Positions 18,980 through 26,870 of a stretch of DNA of 27,917 nucleotides are shown here, one piece after another (position 1 is the stretch's first letter; every line of letters starts with the position of its first letter). The notes below the pieces were generated by a model. It worked only from the letters and a program-made list of their open reading frames with translations. It was not told where the DNA came from and searched no databases. The stretch covers positions 1-27,917 of the IMG/VR virus record IMGVR_UViG_3300034418_003415; one strand, written 5' to 3'. Source of the stretch: a virus. The position numbers and the translations under genes are program-made.

Positions 18980-19212
18980 AACAATAACACAAGGGTCAGA
19001 GATTGCACGAACACGCACCATGTCTTCTCTCCACCGTCAGTTGCGTTTTTCTGGTAGTCAGTCTCCTTTGTTGAGGAGAGGCTCTGCTTTCCTCACCAAG
19101 CCCCCTCATCTGAATCACAGTCCGCTGTGACCATCAAACTGCTTCCGTCTGGTAGAGACATCCTCGCAGATAGATACCTAGCTCCGTTCTTGTCTGTTCT
19201 TCGGTGCGAGTA

Positions 19213-19327: not shown

Positions 19328-19347
19328 GTCAACAAAGGAGAACTAAC

Positions 19348-19743
19348 ATGACTACCAAGAAAAACACAACTAACGGCTTCGTTCAGGACATGATGCGTAT
19401 TCATACAATCACTGACAGAACACACAAATCATCAATACAATATTATCTTTCAAAGTTTGTGAAAGATATTAACTGGAATTCGAATCAGAAAGAACTTCGG
19501 ATTGCAGAGATTGTTGCTATGCAAGAAGAACTTGTTGAGAAAGCTCGCAACGGTGAGATGATTGACAATGATGCACTGTTGAAGAACGAGAATGATATCG
19601 AATGGCTTCGGAAACAGGTAGATTTCAATGACGAGATGGTGACATACTTTACACAAGCGTCACAGCAGTTGTTTCCTGATGAGCATAACAAGTCACAGCA
19701 AATAGCTGATAAGACAGCAGACATCCTCAAAAGATACGCATAA
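19348..19743 (+). CDS. First early gene, helical unknown protein
   Basis: 131 residues from ATG at 19348, chosen because AAAGGAG lies eight bases upstream; the reading frame stays open back to 19267, but that part is the non-coding leader. The protein is highly charged and predicted almost wholly helical (IAEIVAMQEELVEKARNGEM, then NDIEWLRKQVDFNDEMVTYF). No family recognised. It is first in the rightward block and is followed at once by a strong terminator, so it forms its own transcription unit. That is typical of an immediate-early host-takeover or regulatory protein, but this is inference from position. Confidence 0.75.
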   Translation: MTTKKNTTNGFVQDMMRIHTITDRTHKSSIQYYLSKFVKDINWNSNQKELRIAEIVAMQEELVEKARNGEMIDNDALLKNENDIEWLRKQVDFNDEMVTYFTQASQQLFPDEHNKSQQIADKTADILKRYA

Positions 19744-19756
19744 CCTCCCAACAACG

Positions 19757-19787
19757 AGCCTCGATGCTTCGGCATCGGGGCTTTTTT
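19757..19787 (+). terminator. Rho-independent terminator after the first early gene
   Basis: An 11-bp stem (AGCCTCGATGC with GCATCGGGGCT, one G-T pair) closes on the stable tetraloop TTCG and is followed by six T. It begins 14 bases after the stop at 19743. A textbook terminator on the plus strand that separates the first early gene from the next operon. Confidence 0.9.
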
Positions 19788-19884
19788 CTTGTCCTTTTCA
19801 CCCGTCCCAACGGGGCGGCACATCACGGTTGAGTATTTGCCAGCCGCCAACAATTCAACAACAGGCTAAGAAAAAAAGTCTAAG

Positions 19885-19899
19885 GTTGCACTCTGCAAC
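19885..19899. promoter_or_regulatory. 15-bp palindrome on the -35 region of the early promoter
   Basis: GTTGCACTCTGCAAC, a perfect six-base dyad with a three-base centre. It contains the -35 box TTGCAC (19886-19891). Same family as the copies at 330, 11581, 14863, 23507 and 23528. A protein bound here would be expected to block or activate the promoter. Confidence 0.55.
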
Positions 19900-19914
19900 T
19901 AAACATTATATACT
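19886..19914 (+). promoter_or_regulatory. Sigma70-type promoter for the second early operon
   Basis: TTGCAC (-35, 19886-19891), 17-bp spacer, TATACT (-10, 19909-19914). A start near 19921 would leave about 20 bases of leader with SD AGGAG before the ATG at 19941. It lies directly after the terminator of the first early gene. It is overlaid by two dyads: 19885-19899 on the -35 and 19911-19928 on the -10/start site. Confidence 0.75.
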
Positions 19915-19928
19915 GCAAGTATGCAGTA
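19911..19928. promoter_or_regulatory. Operator-like dyad TACTGCA-N4-TGCAGTA, copy 1
   Basis: A perfect 7+7-bp dyad (TACTGCA AGTA TGCAGTA) overlaps the -10 box and the likely start site of the promoter at 19886-19914. A second copy with the same arms and the same four-base spacer lies at 24284-24301, also on a promoter. This fits a repressor operator for one of the small HTH proteins of the early region. Confidence 0.7.
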
Positions 19929-19940
19929 CAGGAGAACACA

Positions 19941-20123
19941 ATGAAACTAGTAGCTAAAACATTTATATATGGTGGCATATCAGCAGTCTTACTGGCATCA
20001 ATGGCAGTAGACGAAACCTATGCACCAATGACTAACGAAGAGTTTATGTTGCAGATAATGCTCATTGTATTTGGCATGGGTGCAACATTCATCGGCTTTA
20101 TTATGCACAGCATGGCGGAGTAA
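19941..20123 (+). CDS. Small two-helix membrane protein (unknown)
   Basis: 60 residues with two probable membrane helices, about residues 6-24 (KTFIYGGISAVLLASMA) and 38-56 (LQIMLIVFGMGATFIGFIM), joined by a short acidic loop. SD AGGAGAA before the ATG. It is the first gene of the operon controlled by the dyad-covered promoter. Small early membrane proteins in phages often act in superinfection exclusion or membrane takeover; nothing here decides between such roles. Confidence 0.7.
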   Translation: MKLVAKTFIYGGISAVLLASMAVDETYAPMTNEEFMLQIMLIVFGMGATFIGFIMHSMAE

Positions 20124-20127
20124 TCAC

Positions 20128-20373
20128 ATGGCAAAGAAGAAAAAGAAACTCAACATCAACATACCTGATGATTGGCCTAGACCTTGGAAAGAACTAGGCG
20201 AAGGTAATGTTACAGCTTTCGGTTATACTTTAATAGTATGGAAGAAGTATAAACGTCCATCCAACTTTAAGATATACGGATTTTCTCAAGGAAAATATAT
20301 GCGTATTTGGTACGGCCGAAAGGTTGTGCATTTTATACTATGCTTTTGCAAAACAGACAGCATAGCAAGCTAA
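20128..20373 (+). CDS. Small basic hypothetical protein
   Basis: 81 residues from ATG at 20128, four bases after the previous stop, with GGAG upstream. The frame is open further upstream, but that part overlaps the membrane protein gene. It begins MAKKKKKLNINIPDDWPRPW, is rich in Lys, Trp and Tyr, and is followed by GKYMRIWYGRKVVHFI. No family recognised. Confidence 0.6.
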   Translation: MAKKKKKLNINIPDDWPRPWKELGEGNVTAFGYTLIVWKKYKRPSNFKIYGFSQGKYMRIWYGRKVVHFILCFCKTDSIAS

Positions 20374-20396
20374 CCGTTCAAGAAAGGAGAACTACA

Positions 20397-21260
20397 ATGA
20401 ACGACATGACAACAATCCAAGAACTAGAAACTGTAAACGACTGGGCGTTTCCTGTAGACACATTTGATTTACATACTGTCACAAAGTTTGCATCAATAAA
20501 TGTACCACCATCAATGGCACGTTGCATTGTACGCACTGATACCAACGAGGTGCTTGGTGTTCACGGTTCTAAATACAAAGCAATACACCATGACGATGTA
20601 GTCAACTCAGTCTTTGATGCAGTCAAACAATCTGGCATATCAAAAGACTATGATTACAAAGTAGAACTGTTTGACAATGGCGCAAAACTACGAGGCACAA
20701 TCGACTTCAATGACCTAGTGGTAGAGCCACAGGTCGGAGATACAATACGCTTCCAAGTCCTGTTCTATAATTCTTATGACGGTTCATGGGCGTTTCAACA
20801 GCAAGCCAGAGGCTTGCGCCTATGGTGTCTCAACGGATGCACACACTCAGATACACTGGCTAACACATGGGCAAAGCATACTACCAACGTCAACATCGAA
20901 GGCTCTGCCGCCAAGATACAAGCTGGTCTTGATGCTTTCTTCAACACCAAAGACCAGTACAAAGCATGGATGAGTACGCACGTTAGCGATGATATGGCAG
21001 AGCAGTTCTTCAAACACGCAATGTGCCGCATCCAAAACAAAACATCCACATTCAAGTGGAACGAGCGTCAGCTTGACCAACTCATGTCATGCTGGAACTC
21101 AGACTCGCAGTCTTTAGGTAAAAACAAATGGGCATTGTACAATGCTTGTACTTACTGGGCTACACACACCAGCGAGTCACGTTCACCTGCTAACACACGC
21201 AGGTTGCGCGAGAACCAGCTTTCCAAAGTATTCAAGAAATCAAACTGGGAAGTTGTATAA
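20397..21260 (+). CDS. DUF932 (phage/plasmid-like TIGR03299-type) protein
   Basis: 287 residues from ATG at 20397, which has the SD AAAGGAG at proper distance; the longer open frame from 20307 is not supported by an SD. Features typical of the DUF932 family are an N-terminal domain with NVPPSMARCIVRTDTNEVLG, then GSKYKAIHHDDVVNSVFDAV, RFQVLFYNSYDGSWAFQQQA and a central RLWCLNGCTH motif, followed by a helical C-terminal part. The family is common in phages and plasmids near replication and recombination genes, but its function is unknown. Confidence 0.8.
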   Translation: MNDMTTIQELETVNDWAFPVDTFDLHTVTKFASINVPPSMARCIVRTDTNEVLGVHGSKYKAIHHDDVVNSVFDAVKQSGISKDYDYKVELFDNGAKLRGTIDFNDLVVEPQVGDTIRFQVLFYNSYDGSWAFQQQARGLRLWCLNGCTHSDTLANTWAKHTTNVNIEGSAAKIQAGLDAFFNTKDQYKAWMSTHVSDDMAEQFFKHAMCRIQNKTSTFKWNERQLDQLMSCWNSDSQSLGKNKWALYNACTYWATHTSESRSPANTRRLRENQLSKVFKKSNWEVV

Positions 21261-21268
21261 CTCAGTCT

Positions 21269-21308
21269 GGAACTGCCACCCCTGCCGTGGGTGAGGGTGG
21301 CAGATTCC
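21269..21308 (+). other. Strong hairpin in the leader of the TTG-start gene
   Basis: CTGCCACCC (21273-21281) pairs with GGGTGGCAG (21295-21303), nine perfect pairs, extended by GGAA/TTCC outside one bulged A. The 13-base loop lies between. It starts nine bases after the DUF932 stop. No T-run follows, so it looks like an mRNA-processing or 3'-end-protecting stem rather than a terminator. Confidence 0.6.
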
Positions 21309-21339
21309 ATCCTGTCAATCACAACACAAGGAGAACACT

Positions 21340-21555
21340 TTGTCTTACTCATTTATCACACACCTTTCATCTATCAATCGTAGTCTAACTATTATGTGCG
21401 GCAATTTAGATGCCAGCAAATCAGAGTTCAGACACAAAGCAAACATGGCTCGTGACTACCTCAAGAGCATTGAGGATACCTATCACGAGGTACTTGAAAC
21501 CGATGCTAGTGACAAACAGCCATACACCAAGCCAACAATAGTGGAGAGTAAGTAA
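21340..21555 (+). CDS. Small early protein with TTG start (unknown)
   Basis: 71 residues. The start is TTG at 21340, supported by AAGGAGAAC just upstream, the same leader type as other early genes. Alternative ATG at 21394 would remove the first 18 residues and has no SD. The protein is polar, with a helical middle (KSEFRHKANMARDYLKSIED). It is joined to the next gene by TAATG. No family recognised. Confidence 0.6.
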   Translation: MSYSFITHLSSINRSLTIMCGNLDASKSEFRHKANMARDYLKSIEDTYHEVLETDASDKQPYTKPTIVESK

Positions 21556-21776
21556 TGTCACTCATGCAACAAAGACACTTTGAATATCTAGCTGATGAGG
21601 TTGCCCCACTTATGGGGTGGCCGTCACAGATAGTAGAAATGGCTGACCGATTAGCTAAAACAAACCCCAGATTTAACAGAGAAAAGTTTCTCAAGCGTGC
21701 TGTTGATGCTTGGGAAGAGGCTCACCCTGTGGAGGATTTAAATGACTATATATCGTATCTCAAAGAATGTGAATAA
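21555..21776 (+). CDS. Small helical early protein (unknown)
   Basis: 73 residues. MSLMQQRHFEYLADEVAPLM is followed by SQIVEMADRLAKTNPRFNRE and then KRAVDAWEEAHPVEDLNDYI. The pattern of short helices with conserved-looking Trp and acidic residues is often seen in small phage proteins of replication regions. No function recognised. The TAATG overlap with the preceding gene fixes the start. Confidence 0.65.
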   Translation: MSLMQQRHFEYLADEVAPLMGWPSQIVEMADRLAKTNPRFNREKFLKRAVDAWEEAHPVEDLNDYISYLKECE

Positions 21777-22029
21777 GTGCTATGAAGAATACCACACTTG
21801 CCAAGACTGCAATAAAATCCACAGTTCTTACAATGACTTACGCCATGACAACACTGATGATGGTGGCTTTTGCGTGGTATGCGGTAGCGATAATATAGAA
21901 ATGCTAATCAAGCACACTGTCTATGCAGAAGTTCTTGCAACTAGCAAAGAAGATGCACTGCAAACTGCTATGGAAATGGAAGAGTGGATTGTACTCGAAC
22001 ACTATTATGAGGATGGAAACAATGAATGA
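21742..22029 (+). CDS. Small zinc-ribbon protein
   Basis: 95 residues with two Cys pairs, CQDC at residues 20-23 and CVVC near residues 44-47, the usual spacing for a zinc ribbon. The C-terminal part (AEVLATSKEDALQTAMEMEE) is a small alpha/beta segment like those found in phage proteins that follow a zinc ribbon. The ATG at 21742 has GGAGG upstream and lies 35 bases inside the previous gene. It may bind nucleic acid or protein; the target is unknown. Confidence 0.65.
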   Translation: MTIYRISKNVNKCYEEYHTCQDCNKIHSSYNDLRHDNTDDGGFCVVCGSDNIEMLIKHTVYAEVLATSKEDALQTAMEMEEWIVLEHYYEDGNNE

Positions 22030-22348
22030 TTTATTTGACACCCCAGCATACAAGCTGGTCAGAGCGAGTGACCCCTCAACAAGTCACGAAGCGGCAGAAC
22101 AGCTAGATGCTACCGCAATGGAACGCATCGTTCTATCTGCAATTAAAACTTTTGGCAATGATGGTTGCATATCAGATGATGTTCTAAATATTTTACCTCA
22201 TCATGGCTACAGCACCATCACCGCAAGGTATAAACAACTGAAAGAAAAAGGTTTTGTAATTGTAGATGAACGCAAACGCAAAGGAAAAAGTGGGCGTAAT
22301 CAATTAGTTATGTGGGCTAAAGAATTTTATAGACCAGAGGAGGCTTGA
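22022..22348 (+). CDS. Winged-helix-like DNA-binding protein
   Basis: 108 residues from ATG at 22022, overlapping the preceding stop by eight bases and preceded by GAGG. The C-terminal two thirds read like a winged helix: ERIVLSAIKTFGNDGCISDD, then HGYSTITARYKQLKEKGFVI, then DERKRKGKSGRNQLVMWAKE, that is, helix, HTH and a basic wing. N-terminal motif SDPSTSHEAAEQL is common in small phage proteins of this type. A candidate regulator of the early or late promoters. Confidence 0.7.
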   Translation: MNDLFDTPAYKLVRASDPSTSHEAAEQLDATAMERIVLSAIKTFGNDGCISDDVLNILPHHGYSTITARYKQLKEKGFVIVDERKRKGKSGRNQLVMWAKEFYRPEEA

Positions 22349-22350
22349 CA

Positions 22351-22431
22351 ATGACTGCGTGTTTGCAGATGATGTGTTCATGCTTACATACATGGACACA
22401 CTTATTAAAAAATCTACAGATGCAAACGTAA
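22351..22431 (+). other. 26-codon open frame with the best SD ahead of the small HTH gene
   Basis: ATG at 22351 has AGGAGG at seven-base spacing, the strongest SD in this operon, but its frame ends at TAA 22429-22431 after 26 codons (MTACLQMMCSCLHTWTHLLK...). A slippery A AAA AAT heptamer in this frame lies at 22407-22413, and the HTH gene is read in the -1 frame. It could be a leader peptide, a frameshift entry into the HTH gene, or chance. Confidence 0.35.
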
Positions 22432-22583
22432 ATCTCAAGAGAGCTTTCGTTTATGCTGGCGTACCTGATTCAACTTTCTATAGAGCAAAGCTGGGTTCAG
22501 AACTAAGGCATAGCACAGCTAATAGAGTAGAGCAGGCTATTGAAAAACTTTCAGCACTACAAAAACGAAACGCCAGTGACTGA
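22359..22583 (+). CDS. Small HTH (Cro-like) protein
   Basis: Up to 74 residues from GTG at 22359; ATG at 22380 or 22392 are alternatives, since no SD sits at normal distance from any of them. The middle (NLKRAFVYAGVPDSTFYRAK) followed by RHSTANRVEQAIEKL looks like a short XRE/Cro-type HTH with a recognition helix at DSTFYRAKLG. Overlaps the next HTH gene by eight bases. Together they are the best candidates for the protein that binds the TACTGCA dyads. Confidence 0.6.
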   Translation: MFADDVFMLTYMDTLIKKSTDANVNLKRAFVYAGVPDSTFYRAKLGSELRHSTANRVEQAIEKLSALQKRNASD

Positions 22584-22788
22584 TACATATCAGGCAATCA
22601 TTAATGAACTGGTGTCTCACAGAGAGAGGCAGAAAATATCACAAGAAGAACTGGCGCATCGTATCGGGTGCGCCAAATCTTTAATTCACAAATGGGAACA
22701 GTACAAACGAGTGCCTTCGGGTTTCTTATTTAGCTGTTGGTTAGACGCTCTTGGCTTACAAATCAAAATCCATAAGAAAAAAACTTAA
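22576..22788 (+). CDS. XRE-family HTH protein
   Basis: 70 residues from GTG at 22576 (coupled, overlapping the preceding stop by eight bases); a TTG at 22540 would add 12 residues. It has a complete XRE HTH: INELVSHRERQKISQEELAH then RIGCAKSLIHKWEQYKRVPS, with SQEELAHRIG as helix 2 and SLIHKWEQ as recognition helix, and FLFSCWLDALGLQI after it. This is the classic cI/Cro-like fold without a second domain. Probably an early transcription regulator. Confidence 0.75.
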   Translation: MTDTYQAIINELVSHRERQKISQEELAHRIGCAKSLIHKWEQYKRVPSGFLFSCWLDALGLQIKIHKKKT

Positions 22789-23086
22789 CGATAAAGTAGG
22801 CAAGCCAGCCCTTTGTGATTCATGTGACCAAACGAAACTCTGGTTTACTTGTATTCTTGCATCTATAGAACCAGCAACTTACCACATAATATGCCTTGAT
22901 TGCATGGAAAGAGGGAGGGATTGGTGGCTTCAAAGAGTCGCAACAAAGGAAACTATCACGAGCGAAAAATCACCCAGTGGTTACAAGCAATGGGGTTCAA
23001 AGCCAAGAGGCAACCACTCTCAGGGTCGCTGGGAGGAGAGTATTCAGGGGATATCGTCTGGCAAATCGGAGGACACAGAATGGTAA
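22751..23086 (+). CDS. Possible small zinc-finger protein overlapping the resolvase gene
   Basis: Frame open for 111 codons from TTG at 22751. Residues 22-25 are CDSC and CLDC lies near 48-51, with PALCDSCDQTKLWFTCI between them, so the first ~60 residues look like a real zinc-binding module. The last ~50 residues overlap the resolvase gene in another frame and look like low-complexity shadow. The start lacks a good SD. The N-terminal half is probably real; the exact ends are uncertain. Confidence 0.5.
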   Translation: MAYKSKSIRKKLNDKVGKPALCDSCDQTKLWFTCILASIEPATYHIICLDCMERGRDWWLQRVATKETITSEKSPSGYKQWGSKPRGNHSQGRWEESIQGISSGKSEDTEW

Positions 23087-23286
23087 CGGAAGTAAAGTAC
23101 CGTGATAAGTCTGGCTTTCCTAACCCATTCACTGTAATGCGTGACGCTTTAATCTACAAACGTAGGACAGGCGAACCAAAAACTATTATAATGTTTGATG
23201 CAGATGTGTTTGAAAAACATATTGCACCATTACTCAAGGAGAACTGCAATGTCATTCATACTAATGGCGAGGGCAATCAAAGCTGA
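22924..23286 (+). CDS. Hjc-like Holliday junction resolvase (PD-(D/E)xK)
   Basis: 120 residues from GTG at 22924, with GGAGG five bases upstream (TTG 22921 is a worse alternative). It begins (V)ASKSRNKGNYHERKITQWLQ and shows Glu13, Asp43 in GGEYSGDIV, and Glu56-x-Lys58 in TEVKY. This E...D...ExK spacing is almost identical to that of archaeal Hjc resolvases (E12, D42, E55, K57 in the Sulfolobus enzyme, as I recall). It would cut branched DNA made during recombination or replication before packaging. It overlaps the initiator gene by 38 bases, so the two are coexpressed. An alternative is a related restriction-like nuclease. Confidence 0.8.
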   Translation: MASKSRNKGNYHERKITQWLQAMGFKAKRQPLSGSLGGEYSGDIVWQIGGHRMVTEVKYRDKSGFPNPFTVMRDALIYKRRTGEPKTIIMFDADVFEKHIAPLLKENCNVIHTNGEGNQS

Positions 23287-23884
23287 TATACCTGATTGCT
23301 ATGCCAAGTGGCTACTAGTTGTACTAGCAGACCACGCCAACGAAGAGACAGGCCAATGCTGGCCTAGCCTCGAACGTCTTGCTGACCGCACACAAATGAA
23401 CAAAGCAACTGTAGCTAGAAAACTAAACTGGCTAGAGGAGCATGGCCTTGTAATTAGAGAACGTGGTAACAGCAGACGGTCAACGCTTTATACTATATTC
23501 CCAACTGTCGCAGAGTGCGACACCACTGTTGCAGAGAGCGACACTAACCTATCAGTAACCAGTAATAACAATAAAGTTGTTAGGCGCAAACAAGTTCCAG
23601 ATGAGTGGATGCCATCTGATGACCTGCGCTTTTCTATAGATACAATTATGAAAGAGGAATTTGACCATGACTTTGAAGCCAATCAGTTCCGTGACCACCA
23701 TCAATCAAAAGGCACAACGTTCATCGACATCGACAAAGCCTACCGAAACTGGATACGAAATTCAGTTAAGTTCGGAACAGCGAAAACAATCGGTGGCCAG
23801 ATTACTAGAGATAGGCGACCCAATGCAGGTGGACAAAAGGCTAGTTACTTCGGTCGAATCAATACTAGGCTACACAGTCAATGA
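23249..23884 (+). CDS. Replication initiator-like protein with N-terminal winged helix (lambda O-type organisation)
   Basis: 211 residues from ATG at 23249, supported by AAGGAGAAC. The N-terminal domain is a winged helix of the HTH_36 kind: YAKWLLVVLADHANEETGQC, PSLERLADRTQMNKATVARK, LEEHGLVIRERGNSRRSTLY. A linker then carries the exact seven-residue repeat TVAECDT-TVAESDT, which is the translation of the 21-bp DNA repeats at 23504-23545. The C-terminal part (PDEWMPSDDLRFSIDTIMKE, then QFRDHHQSKGTTFIDIDKAY) resembles the C-terminal region of phage O-type or DnaT-like proteins. Iterons inside the initiator gene are the known arrangement in lambda O. It probably binds the origin and recruits host helicase. 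Confidence 0.75.
   Translation: MSFILMARAIKADIPDCYAKWLLVVLADHANEETGQCWPSLERLADRTQMNKATVARKLNWLEEHGLVIRERGNSRRSTLYTIFPTVAECDTTVAESDTNLSVTSNNNKVVRRKQVPDEWMPSDDLRFSIDTIMKEEFDHDFEANQFRDHHQSKGTTFIDIDKAYRNWIRNSVKFGTAKTIGGQITRDRRPNAGGQKASYFGRINTRLHSQ
23504..23545 (+). repeat. Two 21-bp iterons inside the initiator gene (candidate replication origin)
   Basis: Two adjacent 21-bp direct repeats (23504-23524 and 23525-23545) agree at 18 of 21 positions and start ACTGTYGCAGAG. Each contains the 15-bp palindrome (23507-23521 and 23528-23542). Their centres are 21 bp apart, two helical turns, so a protein would bind on one face. An AT-rich stretch follows at about 23546-23582. This matches the layout of lambda-type origins (iterons next to an AT-rich region within the initiator gene). 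Confidence 0.65.
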
Positions 23885-24293
23885 GATATCACGCACTAGG
23901 TTTACAGACCACGGCACTGATATACTTGTTTCTGGTTTCAAGATAGAAGCAGATTCAGTTGAACAAGTAGAGCAAGCAATCAAAGCTGTGCTGGCTTCGA
24001 TGACCCCGTTGTCGGTGGAGGCCATCGAGAGCCAGCTGGCTTTGTTAGCTACGCTGGTGGTCAAACCCTCAGGCGAGACACCAGAAGACCACTCACTACG
24101 CATGAGAAGCCTAGCAATGCAGTTATCAGATTATCCAGCAGACATTGTGCAACGTGCAATCAAGAGAGTATCTGAATCTGCAAAGTTCTGGCCATCATAC
24201 GCAGAGTTTTACGAACACATTGGCTGGCGTGTACGCAAGCGTCAGCTACTGTTAGATGCGCTTCACAAAAAGCGTGTTGACATTACTGCATAG
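23823..24293 (+). CDS. Possible helicase-loader-type replication partner
   Basis: 156 residues from ATG at 23823 (AGG seven bases upstream), overlapping the initiator by 62 bases; the frame is open further upstream only as a shadow of the initiator gene. The C-terminal part (LRMRSLAMQLSDYPADIVQR, then KRVSESAKFWPSYAEFYEHI and KRQLLLDAL) has the YPADIV...FWPS-x-AE pattern of small proteins found next to phage replication genes, sometimes considered helicase-loader or P-like partners. It has no Walker motifs, so it would not be a DnaC-type ATPase. Position after an O-like initiator supports a P-like role, but this is inference. Confidence 0.6.
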   Translation: MQVDKRLVTSVESILGYTVNEISRTRFTDHGTDILVSGFKIEADSVEQVEQAIKAVLASMTPLSVEAIESQLALLATLVVKPSGETPEDHSLRMRSLAMQLSDYPADIVQRAIKRVSESAKFWPSYAEFYEHIGWRVRKRQLLLDALHKKRVDITA

Positions 24294-24305
24294 TTGCAGT
24301 ACAAC
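24277..24305 (+). promoter_or_regulatory. Sigma70-type promoter for the recombination operon
   Basis: TTGACA (-35, 24277-24282), 17-bp spacer, TACAAC (-10, 24300-24305). The -35 lies in the end of the preceding gene. The predicted start, about 24312, is exactly where the long leader stem begins. The operator-like dyad 24284-24301 fills the spacer, so the promoter should be repressible. Confidence 0.7.
24284..24301. promoter_or_regulatory. Operator-like dyad TACTGCA-N4-TGCAGTA, copy 2
   Basis: Perfect 7+7-bp dyad (TACTGCA TAGT TGCAGTA) across the spacer and first -10 bases of the promoter at 24277-24305. Arms are identical to those at 19911-19928. Part of it overlaps the stop codon (TAG 24291-24293) of the preceding gene. 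Confidence 0.7.
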
Positions 24306-24311
24306 AAAAGA

Positions 24312-24383
24312 ACAGGTGGCGGTTCGTTCAGGACTGTTGTAAACCGCAGTGTTTACATTAGTGGATACCTTCTCGTCACCTGT
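24312..24383 (+). ncRNA. Structured 5' leader closed by a 7-bp stem
   Basis: ACAGGTG (24312-24318) at the predicted transcript start pairs with CACCTGT (24377-24383), and GCGGTT (24319-24324) with AACCGC (24342-24347) stacks inside. The 72-base span with a 7-bp closing stem resembles a tRNA acceptor, but T-arm and anticodon arm are missing. The structure ends seven bases before the SD AAGGAG. A stabilising or regulatory leader for the exonuclease gene is likely. Confidence 0.5.
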
Positions 24384-24404
24384 GCAACATAAGGAGAACT
24401 ACAC

Positions 24405-25202
24405 ATGAATAGACAAGGCTTTATTGGCGGCTCAGATATGAGGCGCATCATGGATGGTGATTGGGTATCACTATGGGAAGAAAAGACTGGCCGCACCCAG
24501 CCAGAAGATTTATCAAATCATCTTGCGGTACAACTCGGCACACACACAGAAGATTTCAATCTACAATGGTTTGCAGATAATGAACTCAATGCAACAGAGC
24601 AAGGGCTAGACCTGCTCAGTAAGCAAAGAACATTTGAGATGAACTGGGAAGGCGTACCATGTAAGGGTACTGTTGATGCTTGCATACACAACACACATGA
24701 AATTGTAGAGGCAAAGCATACATACGAACGCAACACTATGGAAGGTTGCCTTACTATGTATATGCCGCAGATACAATTCTACTTATGGATTGGCGTTAAG
24801 GATGGATGCTATCTATCTGTAATCTTTGGCAATCGCAGATGGGAATCTGTTTATATCAAAAAGGATTGGGATTACATCCACAAGATGCAGGTACATCTCA
24901 AAGAGTTTTGGGGTCATGTTAAAGCAGACACTCGCCCTTTCGGTGATGACCAAGTAGCACCAATATCTATAGATAAGATTCCTGTAGATGGCATGACACG
25001 CAGGGATGCCTCAAGTGACAACGAGTTTATCTCTCGTTGCCATGATTACATTGAGCAAGAACAATCAGCAAAGTCTTTTGAGTCTGCAAAGTCAGACCTA
25101 AAAGCTATGGTATCTGATGATGAGCGAGAAGTATATTGCGACTTGCTTACAATCAAGCGTGACAAGCGTGGCTCGTTACGCATAACAACAAAGGAGAACT
25201 AG
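24405..25202 (+). CDS. YqaJ/lambda-exonuclease-type recombination nuclease
   Basis: 265 residues; SD AAGGAG before ATG. It has IGGSDMRRIM near the N-terminus, LGTHTED with Glu49, GTVDACI with Asp91 and EIVEAKH with Glu102-x-Lys104, then MPQIQFYLW with Gln122 and Gln124. This is the motif series of YqaJ-type viral recombinases related to lambda Exo, which resect dsDNA 5'-3' to give 3' tails. The Rad52-like annealing protein follows at once (next base after the stop), making a two-component exonuclease/annealase pair as in lambda Red. It has its own promoter and a structured leader. Confidence 0.88.
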   Translation: MNRQGFIGGSDMRRIMDGDWVSLWEEKTGRTQPEDLSNHLAVQLGTHTEDFNLQWFADNELNATEQGLDLLSKQRTFEMNWEGVPCKGTVDACIHNTHEIVEAKHTYERNTMEGCLTMYMPQIQFYLWIGVKDGCYLSVIFGNRRWESVYIKKDWDYIHKMQVHLKEFWGHVKADTRPFGDDQVAPISIDKIPVDGMTRRDASSDNEFISRCHDYIEQEQSAKSFESAKSDLKAMVSDDEREVYCDLLTIKRDKRGSLRITTKEN

Positions 25203-25655
25203 ATGTCAGACAATATGAAACTTTGGAACGCTGTATCCAAATCAGACAAACAATATCTAAAGAAGGTATCGTTTGGTCAACGTTCGTTCACAGCAATTGA
25301 CCCACAATATCAGGTGCGCTGTGCAACAGAACAGTTCGGCCCTGTTGGTCAGGGCTGGGGATGGAGAAACGAAACACGGTTTATCAATCTGTCAGGTGGT
25401 GACACTGCTGTAATTGCAGACGTTTCTATCTGGACTGTTTCACGTGAAAATGAATTTGGCCCATTCTCAGGCTGTCGTACATTCTACAATGCAAGTAAGG
25501 GACGCATTGCAGAAGACGCACCTAAGATGGCTATCACTGATGGCCTAACCAAAGCCCTATCACATCTAGGCTTTAACGCTGATGTATTCTTGGGCGAAAT
25601 GGATGGCAACAAATATGCCGCAGACAGTGGCAAAAAAGATAAGGGAGGCTGGTAA
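25203..25655 (+). CDS. Rad52-like (Sak-type) single-strand annealing protein
   Basis: 150 residues. The segments TAIDPQYQVRCATEQFGPVG and QGWGW in the N-terminal half, then SGCRTFYNASKGRIAEDAPK, AITDGLTKALSHLGFNADVF and LGEMDGNKYA, follow the Rad52/Sak pattern (a D-P-x-x-x-x-x-x-T-x-x-FGP-x-G-x-GW motif and a KALSxLGFxADVFLG motif). It would form rings that anneal complementary strands exposed by the upstream exonuclease. Length is on the short side for the family (about 150-240). SD AAAGGAG present; TAATG joins it to the next gene. Confidence 0.85.
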   Translation: MSDNMKLWNAVSKSDKQYLKKVSFGQRSFTAIDPQYQVRCATEQFGPVGQGWGWRNETRFINLSGGDTAVIADVSIWTVSRENEFGPFSGCRTFYNASKGRIAEDAPKMAITDGLTKALSHLGFNADVFLGEMDGNKYAADSGKKDKGGW

Positions 25656-26020
25656 TGTTTGGAGCAATCAAACAAATCAAAAAAGACATAGAAGAAATCA
25701 AACACAAGCAAGAGCGTATCATTTGGATAATGAATGAGGTAATGAAATATGGCAAGAAGATGCAAAGCCATAATCAATCAGCCAGAATTTATAATCCTGC
25801 AATTAAAACGCCAAGACAAAAGCATGAGTATTATCATGCACTGTTACCCCTAATTAAAAACAAATTCAAAAGAATTGACCAACTTGCAAAGTCTTTGAAA
25901 ATAACTGAGGGGTCAGTAATTACATACATCAAACTAGCTAGAAAAGCTGGCTATACAATCGAAACAAAAAGAAGAAGAAACGGAAGAGCATCTTATAAAC
26001 TACACACGGAGAATTTCTAA
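25655..26020 (+). CDS. Coiled-coil plus HTH small protein
   Basis: 121 residues. The N-terminus (AIKQIKKDIEEIKHKQERII) is a probable coiled coil. The C-terminal part (FKRIDQLAKSLKITEGSVIT then YIKLARKAGYTIETKR) is a helix-turn-helix, with SVITYIKLARKAG as recognition helix, and a basic end (RRRNGRASYK). No family recognised. It lies between the annealing protein and the SSB-like protein and may modulate recombination or transcription. TAATG overlaps at both ends. Confidence 0.65.
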   Translation: MFGAIKQIKKDIEEIKHKQERIIWIMNEVMKYGKKMQSHNQSARIYNPAIKTPRQKHEYYHALLPLIKNKFKRIDQLAKSLKITEGSVITYIKLARKAGYTIETKRRRNGRASYKLHTENF

Positions 26021-26403
26021 TGACTGAATATGATAACACAAACAGAGGCGCGGCCTTCCAGCCATTCCCTGAACAAAAGTTTATCTTACAAGGTAAATTA
26101 AATATGTATGGCGATGACCATAACGTTGCACTCATATTAGCCGAATCAAAGTCTGGTGAAAAACGTATTGAGATTTACCAAAAGATTGGTGTAATGTTTG
26201 ACAACGATAAAAATGGTAACGACAAAGCACCTGATTATTCAGGGCCGCTTGATGGCATACATTCAAATTGGCGCATTGCTGGATGGAAAGGTATGAAAGA
26301 TAGTAAGCCTTACATGACAATGCAAATGTCAGAAAGATTAAACAAAGACACTGTTATAGAACCAGAAACTAAAGCAGAACCAATTGATGAAATACCATTC
26401 TAA
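26020..26403 (+). CDS. SSB-like protein with IPF acidic tip
   Basis: 127 residues. The core (FILQGKLNMYGDDHNVALIL, then DYSGPLDGIHSNWRIAGWKG and KPYMTMQMSERL) looks like an OB-type beta barrel of the kind found in DUF736 and other small phage SSB-like proteins. The C-terminus ends EPIDEIPF, matching the acidic D-D-x-IPF tip by which bacterial SSB proteins recruit host repair and replication enzymes. It ends the recombination operon (exonuclease, annealing protein, HTH protein, SSB). A candidate sRNA and terminator follow within five bases. Function is well supported by the tip but the fold is inferred. Confidence 0.75.
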   Translation: MTEYDNTNRGAAFQPFPEQKFILQGKLNMYGDDHNVALILAESKSGEKRIEIYQKIGVMFDNDKNGNDKAPDYSGPLDGIHSNWRIAGWKGMKDSKPYMTMQMSERLNKDTVIEPETKAEPIDEIPF

Positions 26404-26407
26404 CATA

Positions 26408-26483
26408 GGCTTGGTTTCGAAGTAGTTCTCCTTTCCAAGCCGAGGCGCATCAGTTTAAGTCGTTCCCACTGATGCGCCTTTTT
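26408..26483 (+). ncRNA. Candidate regulatory RNA: anti-Shine-Dalgarno loop plus terminator
   Basis: Stem GGCTTGG (26408-26414) and CCAAGCC (26435-26441) holds a 20-base loop whose last 13 bases, GTAGTTCTCCTTT (26422-26434), are the exact reverse complement of AAAGGAGAACTAC. Early leaders carry that sequence around their SD: 14 bases match at 20382-20395, 12 each at 19334-19345, 24391-24402 and 25190-25201, 10 at 23236-23245, 9 at 21328-21336. Loop also resembles the CCUCCUUU end of 16S rRNA. A strong terminator follows, as in many 3'-UTR-derived sRNAs. Function is inferred. Confidence 0.55.
26444..26483 (+). terminator. Rho-independent terminator of the recombination operon
   Basis: GGCGCATCAGT (26444-26454) and ACTGATGCGCC (26468-26478) form a perfect 11-bp stem around a 13-base loop, followed by five T. 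It ends the transcript that begins at about 24312. On the minus strand no T-run follows, so it does not stop the leftward lysis transcript. Confidence 0.9.
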
Positions 26484-26497
26484 CTATAGGTGATGCT

Positions 26498-26734
26498 ATG
26501 AAAAACACAGTAACAAAATACAAATACAAAGCTGTAAGATACACTGTCTATGTAGAAACAACTATCGAAAGAGAGGTTTCTGTTTTAGCTGTAGATGCAG
26601 AAGAAGCAAAGCAACTAGCAATTAACAGAATGGACAAAAACAAAAGTGTTATCCGCAAGTATAAAATAATTGAACATGAGGCAGTAGATGTTGAGCCAGA
26701 AAAAAACCCTAGCGTCTCAAATGACACCCTATGA
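26498..26734 (+). CDS. Small hypothetical protein after the terminator
   Basis: 78 residues. A beta-rich first half (YKYKAVRYTVYVETTIEREV) leads into SVLAVDAEEAKQLAINRM, a pattern seen in small phage alpha/beta proteins, and an acidic end. SD GGTG lies six bases before the ATG. No family recognised. No clear promoter of its own, so it may depend on readthrough of the terminator. Confidence 0.6.
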   Translation: MKNTVTKYKYKAVRYTVYVETTIEREVSVLAVDAEEAKQLAINRMDKNKSVIRKYKIIEHEAVDVEPEKNPSVSNDTL

Positions 26735-26870
26735 ATTTAGTTTGTATCTAAAGAACGCAAGAGACAGAGTGTTTTACTTTGACAAATACAGGACAGACCA
26801 AAGAAGAAATGGCCCAACCTTTATTGACAAAGCAGTACGCCACTCAATGAAACGAAGAAAATCTAAGTAA
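26688..26870 (+). CDS. Small basic protein at the convergent end (unknown)
   Basis: 60 residues from ATG at 26688 (GAGG six bases upstream), or 49 from ATG at 26721. The C-terminal part (LKNARDRVFYFDKYRTDQRR then IDKAVRHSMKRRKSK) is basic. It overlaps the preceding gene by 47 bases and its 3' end overlaps the opposite-strand endolysin stop by eight bases, so the two transcripts meet here. No family recognised. Confidence 0.5.
   Translation: MLSQKKTLASQMTPYEFSLYLKNARDRVFYFDKYRTDQRRNGPTFIDKAVRHSMKRRKSK

Follow-up and report, generated by a model that had tools for sequence, protein, structure and literature searches.

The window considered here, namely, the whole of a linear IMG/VR virus record of 27,917 bases, has the gene content of a podovirus-like phage, as reflected in profile matches. 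The late genes, encoding a head-tail connector, major head protein, terminase, tail proteins and internal virion proteins, lie mostly on the minus strand, and the plus strand carries an early block spanning positions 19348-26870, inside which a 12-bp terminator is found between genes (19756-19783). An M15-type endolysin gene is located beyond the early block, on the minus strand. Among the gene products examined, none was identifiable as an integrase.

A hairpin is housed in the 3' UTR of an SSB-like gene (26020-26403, plus strand; PHROG 18154 single-strand DNA-binding protein, E 2.6e-4), the last gene before it, with the stop codon being at 26401-26403. On the basis of sequence and fold, this candidate antisense hairpin (26408-26441, plus strand) comprises a 7-bp stem, with arms GGCTTGG (26408-26414) and CCAAGCC (26435-26441), closing the 20-nt loop TTTCGAAGTAGTTCTCCTTT (26415-26434). 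The loop contains the seed GTAGTTCTCCTTT (26422-26434, plus strand), the reverse complement of AAAGGAGAACTAC, in which the core GTTCTCC is near-constant among relatives and the 2-4 bases upstream of the core co-vary with the early leaders. A rho-independent terminator follows (26443-26483, plus strand), also recognised from sequence and fold and predicted to form the 3' end of the RNA; it consists of an 11-bp stem (AGGCGCATCAG, 26443-26453; CTGATGCGCCT, 26469-26479), a 15-nt loop (TTTAAGTCGTTCCCA) and a U-run that reaches 26483. The 83 nt from 26404 onwards fold at -33.5 kcal/mol (z = -6.6 relative to shuffles), and the interval between the SSB stop codon and the hairpin offers no room for a promoter. 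Direct reading confirmed, base for base, the hairpin, loop and terminator of a preliminary description of this DNA, as well as the seven matches between the loop and early leaders quoted there, all of which are exact. No Rfam family was matched at E <= 1 in the window, nor was any matched at the gathering threshold in eight diverse relatives.

Predicted pairing of the loop with early leaders

Pairing energies between the loop and the leaders of the window, proposed with the preliminary description as a check, were calculated using RNAduplex, with random 28-mers serving as reference (median -5.2 kcal/mol; 0.1% quantile -16.4 kcal/mol). Six early genes (starting at 19348, 20397, 21340, 23249, 24405 and 25203) yielded loop duplexes of -16.6 to -20.1 kcal/mol, as opposed to -12.1 kcal/mol or weaker for the late (minus-strand) leaders. 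On the plus strand, the leader of the 19348-19743 gene presents a 12-nt match (AAAGGAGAACTA, 19334-19345; -17.2 kcal/mol), that of a DUF932 gene (20397-21260; E 7.6e-22) a 14-nt match that includes one stem base (GAAAGGAGAACTAC, 20382-20395; -20.1 kcal/mol) and that of the 21340-21555 gene a 9-nt match (AAGGAGAAC, 21328-21336; -19.2 kcal/mol). Further along the same strand, matches of 10 nt (AAGGAGAACT, 23236-23245; -19.4 kcal/mol), 12 nt (AAGGAGAACTAC, 24391-24402; -19.3 kcal/mol) and 12 nt (AAAGGAGAACTA once more, 25190-25201; -16.6 kcal/mol) precede, respectively, a replication-initiator-like gene (23249-23884; PHROG 1032, E 2e-26), a YqaJ/RecE-like exonuclease gene (24405-25202; YqaJ E 1.5e-7) and an ERF-like annealing-protein gene (25203-25655), whose product is homologous to the single strand-annealing protein of HTVC035P. 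A weaker target leader of 8 nt (AGGAGAAC, 19930-19937, plus strand; -13.4 kcal/mol) belongs to the 19941-20123 gene, and the remaining early leaders gave values of between -4 and -12 kcal/mol. The leaders of the SSB-like gene and of the gene at 25655 are unmatched by the loop, such that the operon is targeted non-uniformly, and some early leaders with a good SD carry the 7-nt core GGAGAAC only.

Directly upstream of a small gene of 56-60 aa, a palindromic TACTGCAAGTATGCAGTA was noted (window 19909-19930; loci L003, L030, L045, L053 and L054 in the relatives described below). This palindrome, possibly an operator or a regulatory hairpin, is retained across loop classes that differ elsewhere.

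The hairpin in related phages

Searches with the SSB-like protein yielded 80 viral contigs, and further scans with a divergent SSB-like protein, an ERF-like protein and two divergent exonucleases added about 240 loci, many on the same contigs. The hairpin family comprises about 90 related viral contigs with 24 distinct hairpins and about 14 unrelated stem sequences, many loci being near-copies of one virus, so that contig counts do not correspond to independent events. The phages concerned are uncultured and mostly marine. A hairpin and terminator were found in almost all relatives with at least 53% SSB identity, while no hairpin with terminator was seen after the SSB stop codon in more distant relatives (L055-L080, 38-44%). 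In 51 of 52 measured loci, the hairpin begins 0-7 nt past the SSB-like stop codon or overlaps it by 3 nt, and a terminator-like inverted repeat lies 3' of the hairpin in all family members listed.

The nearest cultured relative by head-tail connector (61% identity) is Hodr, a pelagiphage that infects Pelagibacter. Hodr presents plain AAGGAGG leaders and no such hairpin was seen there; moreover, the GGAGAAC leader class is absent from Hodr, HTVC035P, Lederberg and one Sulfitobacter phage. A genome scan with the SSB-like protein returned one contig only (L253, a Rhodospirillales MAG), as a distant match that stops at the contig edge.

The same kind of loop is closed by stems that are unrelated across lineages, namely, GGCTTGG, TGCTCGG, TGAGGCAAG, AGCAGG, TGCGATAG, TACCTATG, AGCAAAGG, AGCGAGGG, TCGTGG, GGTCGG, TTTTAGGGT and others. 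Over the 24 distinct hairpins, 4-6 base-pair types occur at stem positions 3-6 and three at position 7. As stems were located by a search for complementarity, independent support is provided by the fold z-scores, which range from -2.8 to -6.9 for 15 hairpin types. Three loci with mis-assigned stems (L030, L168 and L194) were left out of the stem comparison, and in the L029/L046/L053 group, CUCC lies partly inside the stem, which would need to open. A 5'-extended candidate in L154 (CTCCTTGTAA) was dropped, being inside an open reading frame, and the TAGCCTCC matches of the L226 group appear to represent an opposite-strand ribosome-binding site read in antisense.

The window contains four early-strand copies of GGAGAACTA, all at SDs, and one reverse-complement copy, in the loop. 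Across 11 long contigs, 65 of 159 early leaders and none of the 82 late-strand leaders contain the class 9-mer (GGAGAACTA or GGAGAACCA), bearing out the earlier claim that late leaders lack the SD extension. Of the 67 early-strand copies of this 9-mer, 65 lie at an SD, and each genome has a single copy of its reverse complement, within the hairpin loop. As background, 101 strands from loci not belonging to the family were considered at the same stringency; among their 2262 CTCC sites, no context matched at least three SD leaders. Since a duplex reads identically in either orientation, the shared sequence could in principle act at the DNA level, with a protein binding double-stranded AAGGAGAAC(TA), or be a repeat, the hairpin copy being one more inverted site. 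This is highly improbable and was rejected, given the concentration of early-strand copies at SDs and the location of the only inverted copy within a hairpin, the stem of which has been rebuilt from unrelated sequences.

Co-variation of loop and leaders

The loop bases 5' of CUCC vary by lineage and the early leaders vary to match. The loop versions are UAGUUCUCC, UGGUUCUCC, CUGUUCUCC, UCGUUCUCC and GCUUUCUCC, with the matching leader complements being GGAGAACUA, GGAGAACCA, GGAGAACAG, GGAGAACGA and GGAGAAAGC. Phages with loop UAGUUCUCC carry leaders with GGAGAACUA and those with loop UGGUUCUCC carry GGAGAACCA, while UCUGUUCUCC is accompanied by GGAGAACAG(A) and the L318 loop UUCGUUCUCC by GGAGAACG. 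In L153, where loop GCUUUCUCC is matched by leaders with GGAGAAAGC, the core itself is altered on both sides (CUUUCUCC with GGAGAAAG). The leaders of a single orthologous gene, that encoding the exonuclease, read GGAGAACTAC, GGAGAACCAA, GGAGAACAGC, GGAGAACGAA and GGAGAAAGCT according to loop class, with extensions AACTAC, AACCAA, AACAGC, AACGAA and AAAGCT in the matching classes. The DUF932 and replication-initiator-like leaders likewise change class in relatives.

When the loops and leaders of 14 representatives were compared in a matrix, 70 own-class matches reached 9 bp or more, as compared to a permuted mean of 27 (p about 1e-5), with off-class matches being near zero. With 24 representatives, 83 leaders showed matches of at least 9 bp, against a permuted mean of 25 and maximum of 65; none of 200,000 permutations, in which loops were shuffled among genomes with relatedness uncorrected, reached 83. 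In the latter test, L105 was counted as having no match because its loop was misread (extension GAGAACGG), although a separate comparison revealed no matching leader either. As the permutation ignores relatedness, loop and leader states were placed on an exonuclease tree as a partial remedy. On this tree, the co-varying base changed about 9-10 times, and one supported clade contained both T/T and C/C subclades. Loop and leader states, the latter by majority assignment, were concordant in 26 of 29 tree rows, with L285 and L297/L303 being discordant. At the level of single leaders, the base after GGAGAAC agreed with that predicted from the loop in 109 of 140 cases (A, 25/28; C, 34/39; G, 4/8; T, 46/65).

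Several exceptions were encountered. L285-L288 present a good stem and loop UUUAGUUCUCCUUU (the UAGUUCUCC version), yet their early leaders are mostly GGAGAACA (AACA), possibly reflecting a recent loop change or recombination. L035, like L105, also fails to match, and L107, L308, L312 and L340 show mostly 8-bp matches, chiefly to the GGAGAACA stretch only. In L305/L306, GGAGCAAA leaders precede the exonuclease, the next gene and a third gene, and no matching CTCC loop was found; this lineage may have a different solution. The 7-bp core GUUCUCC/GGAGAAC thus represents the deepest conserved part, with the extension co-varying in most lineages. The preliminary description had looked to joint change of loop and SD extension in related phages for support and to a loop that drifts within a conserved stem for refutation. 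Loop and extension were found to co-vary across lineages, and the opposite of the refuting pattern was seen, with the loop core being conserved and the stems being unrelated.

These observations also bear on the likeness of the loop to the 3' end of 16S rRNA. CUCCUUU resembles the 16S tail and the terminator of the window is in itself unremarkable, such that one could be dealing with an ordinary strong SD consensus and an ordinary terminator, their complementarity being coincidental or due to general mimicry of the 16S 3' end. However, 16S rRNA pairs with GGAGGU and not with GGAGAAC(U/C/A/G). Duplexes of the 16S tail with the target leaders reach -7 to -13 kcal/mol and are mostly weaker than, and at best equal to, those with the GGAGG-type leaders that suit it, whereas the loop pairs with the same leaders at -17 to -20 kcal/mol. 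Judging from these pairings, 16S rRNA cannot explain the leader extension. Coincidence or mimicry is moreover contradicted by the co-variation of loop and leaders and by the zero background in the 101 unrelated strands, and we consider this reading to be extremely improbable, refuted as far as sequence allows. The related suggestion that the loop competes with ribosomes through its 16S likeness is likewise not needed, the conserved specific part being the extension, which 16S rRNA leaves unpaired.

Predicted mode of action and known systems

The core claim of the preliminary description, namely, an antisense loop directed against the ribosome-binding sites of early genes, draws strong support from the co-variation across lineages, the divergence of stems and the 0/82 count for late leaders; complementarity, placement on early SDs only, the hairpin with its terminator and compensatory change of loop and leaders can all be read from the sequences. 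The 3' end of the early operon would thus probably serve as an antisense RNA that occludes the SDs of early genes, with early protein synthesis falling as transcripts accumulate, a single RNA very likely allowing the phage to dampen its early gene set as a whole. In the proposed mechanism, the hairpin loop would display a seed of 9-13 nt, with the terminator closing the RNA, and the seed would pair with the SD and the next 3-6 spacer bases in about 5-8 early leaders of the same phage, namely, those of the 19348, DUF932, replication initiator, exonuclease and ERF annealing protein genes, and others. As there is no room for a promoter between the stop codon and the hairpin, the RNA would be made by 3'-end processing of the operon mRNA. 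It would act in trans. Because the paired bases would include the SD and some of the spacer, a region that the 30S subunit has to occupy, blocked 30S binding and, hence, repression rather than activation would be the natural effect. Such repression would limit or close the early phase. The preliminary description had proposed a switch from early to late expression; since this RNA would come from the 3' terminus of its own target operon, a feedback limit on early expression is no less natural a reading than a timed switch. As such, negative feedback on early translation, which would fall with rising early transcripts, by a 3'-UTR-derived RNA is the reading favoured here, by analogy with the systems discussed below, and early shut-off by the hairpin RNA is possible.

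The hairpin shares its strand and gene block with its targets, no promoter of its own is visible and it adjoins or overlaps the SSB stop codon. These features would also fit a 3' UTR hairpin that acts in cis, pairing with leaders within the same polycistronic early mRNA (through long-range 5'/3' or internal contacts) and never existing as a free small RNA. We deem this unlikely, as several leaders across about 7 kb share one loop, an arrangement more easily served in trans, and as intergenic terminators inside the block, such as the 12-bp one noted above, suggest several transcripts.

A free antisense RNA could also be directed mainly at other phages, silencing the early genes of an incoming relative of the same class during co-infection, with class switching offering escape from cross-silencing. 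Loop and leader specificity has indeed diverged repeatedly despite a constant core and the many leaders that had to change, and c4 RNA sets P1/P7 heteroimmunity via antisense pairing around the ant ribosome-binding site (PMC12197685). Still, the phage itself would be silenced too, and slow co-drift around the 7-bp core also accounts for the divergence, making interference as the main role quite unlikely.

Translational shut-off of early genes in phages is known mainly via proteins such as RegA. The latter, a T4 protein, competes with the ribosome at the initiation regions of about 30 phage mRNAs, creating a hierarchy among early and middle genes (PMC3014915). As with RegA, the nearest counterpart in function, a single regulator is proposed here for the initiation regions of many phage mRNAs; here, however, the regulator would be an RNA, with specificity via base pairing. 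Among RNAs, the alpha-r14 or cuckoo RNAs (NfeR1 in Sinorhizobium) present anti-SD loops on highly different stems and block translation initiation by SD pairing (PMC10746234), the alphaproteobacterial NfeR1 working in the manner proposed here. In the 24 distinct phage hairpins, too, the anti-SD loop core is conserved and the stems have diverged. Cuckoo RNAs are, however, chromosomal sRNAs with metabolic targets and with three hairpins sharing one ultraconserved motif, CCUCCUCCC, whereas the phage element usually has one hairpin, lies in the 3' UTR of its own regulon and changes its loop with its targets. Three hairpins with CCUCCUCCC were not found here; there is one loop motif, GUAGUUCUCCUUU, and a terminator loop with UUCCC only. 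Likewise, c4 RNA of P1 and P7 is encoded by phages, bears in its loops complements to the ribosome-binding region of a phage mRNA and blocks translation (PMC12197685). The hairpin described here shares the complementary loop and would act similarly, although c4 has one target (ant) and serves the immunity of temperate phages, as opposed to the 5-8 early replication and recombination genes targeted here. The Rfam covariance model for C4 antisense RNA found no match in the window or in eight relatives. By the features tested, the predicted RNA is not a member of the cuckoo RNA family or of c4.

Together with the cuckoo RNAs and c4, the nearest in design are OppZ and CarZ of Vibrio cholerae, operon 3'-UTR sRNAs that pair with their own transcript, inhibit translation and so limit their own operons (PMC7398697). 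The phage hairpin similarly lies in an operon 3' UTR ending in a terminator and offers a seed complementary to translation initiation regions of its own operon or regulon. By contrast, OppZ and CarZ are bacterial, processed by RNase E and experimentally shown, and neither is an SD-class-wide regulator or serves a phage early regulon. The consulted sections of a 2025 review of phage sRNAs list none aimed at a set of the phage's own early leaders, and in the literature covered in part here, no phage-wide regulon with co-evolving loop and targets was found described. The parts are thus already known from cuckoo RNAs, c4 RNA and OppZ/CarZ, and the phage-wide co-evolving regulon would be the new element. 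The broadest version of the proposal, about which we are tentative and somewhat doubtful, is that one 3'-UTR antisense RNA could globally repress translation of the early regulon of a lytic phage, in the manner of T4 RegA but as an RNA, with a seed that co-evolves with 5-8 leaders and mutually orthogonal classes that could decide mixed infections.

In this family of uncultured phages, base pairing appears to perform early shut-off for the full set of early genes, and this can be recognised from sequence, as a single loop and its many leaders vary in concert. To our knowledge, such joint change of a loop with several targets is rare, and it offers a strong natural test of sRNA-target pairing. 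The loop classes provide ready-made pairs of sRNA and ribosome-binding site, apparently orthogonal between classes, as well as a testable hypothesis on competition between related phages.

Two additional sets of sequences were noted. In some members, the long 5' region that precedes the first early gene contains TCTCC-bearing stretches (GTCAGTCTCCT, CGTTCTCCT and CAGTTCTCCT; about 19060-19068 in the window and about 200-320 nt ahead of that gene in L004, L009, L021, L036 and L110), where a second antisense element, not clearly conserved, is possible in the 5' leader. In the terminator loop (26454-26468 in the window; also L003, L035, L054, L105 and L133), a second C-rich, anti-SD-like stretch (UUCCUCC, CCCUCC) is common, and in L107 (8464-8477), L297 and L316, the terminator loop itself carries UUCUCC, such that some members may present two antisense loops.
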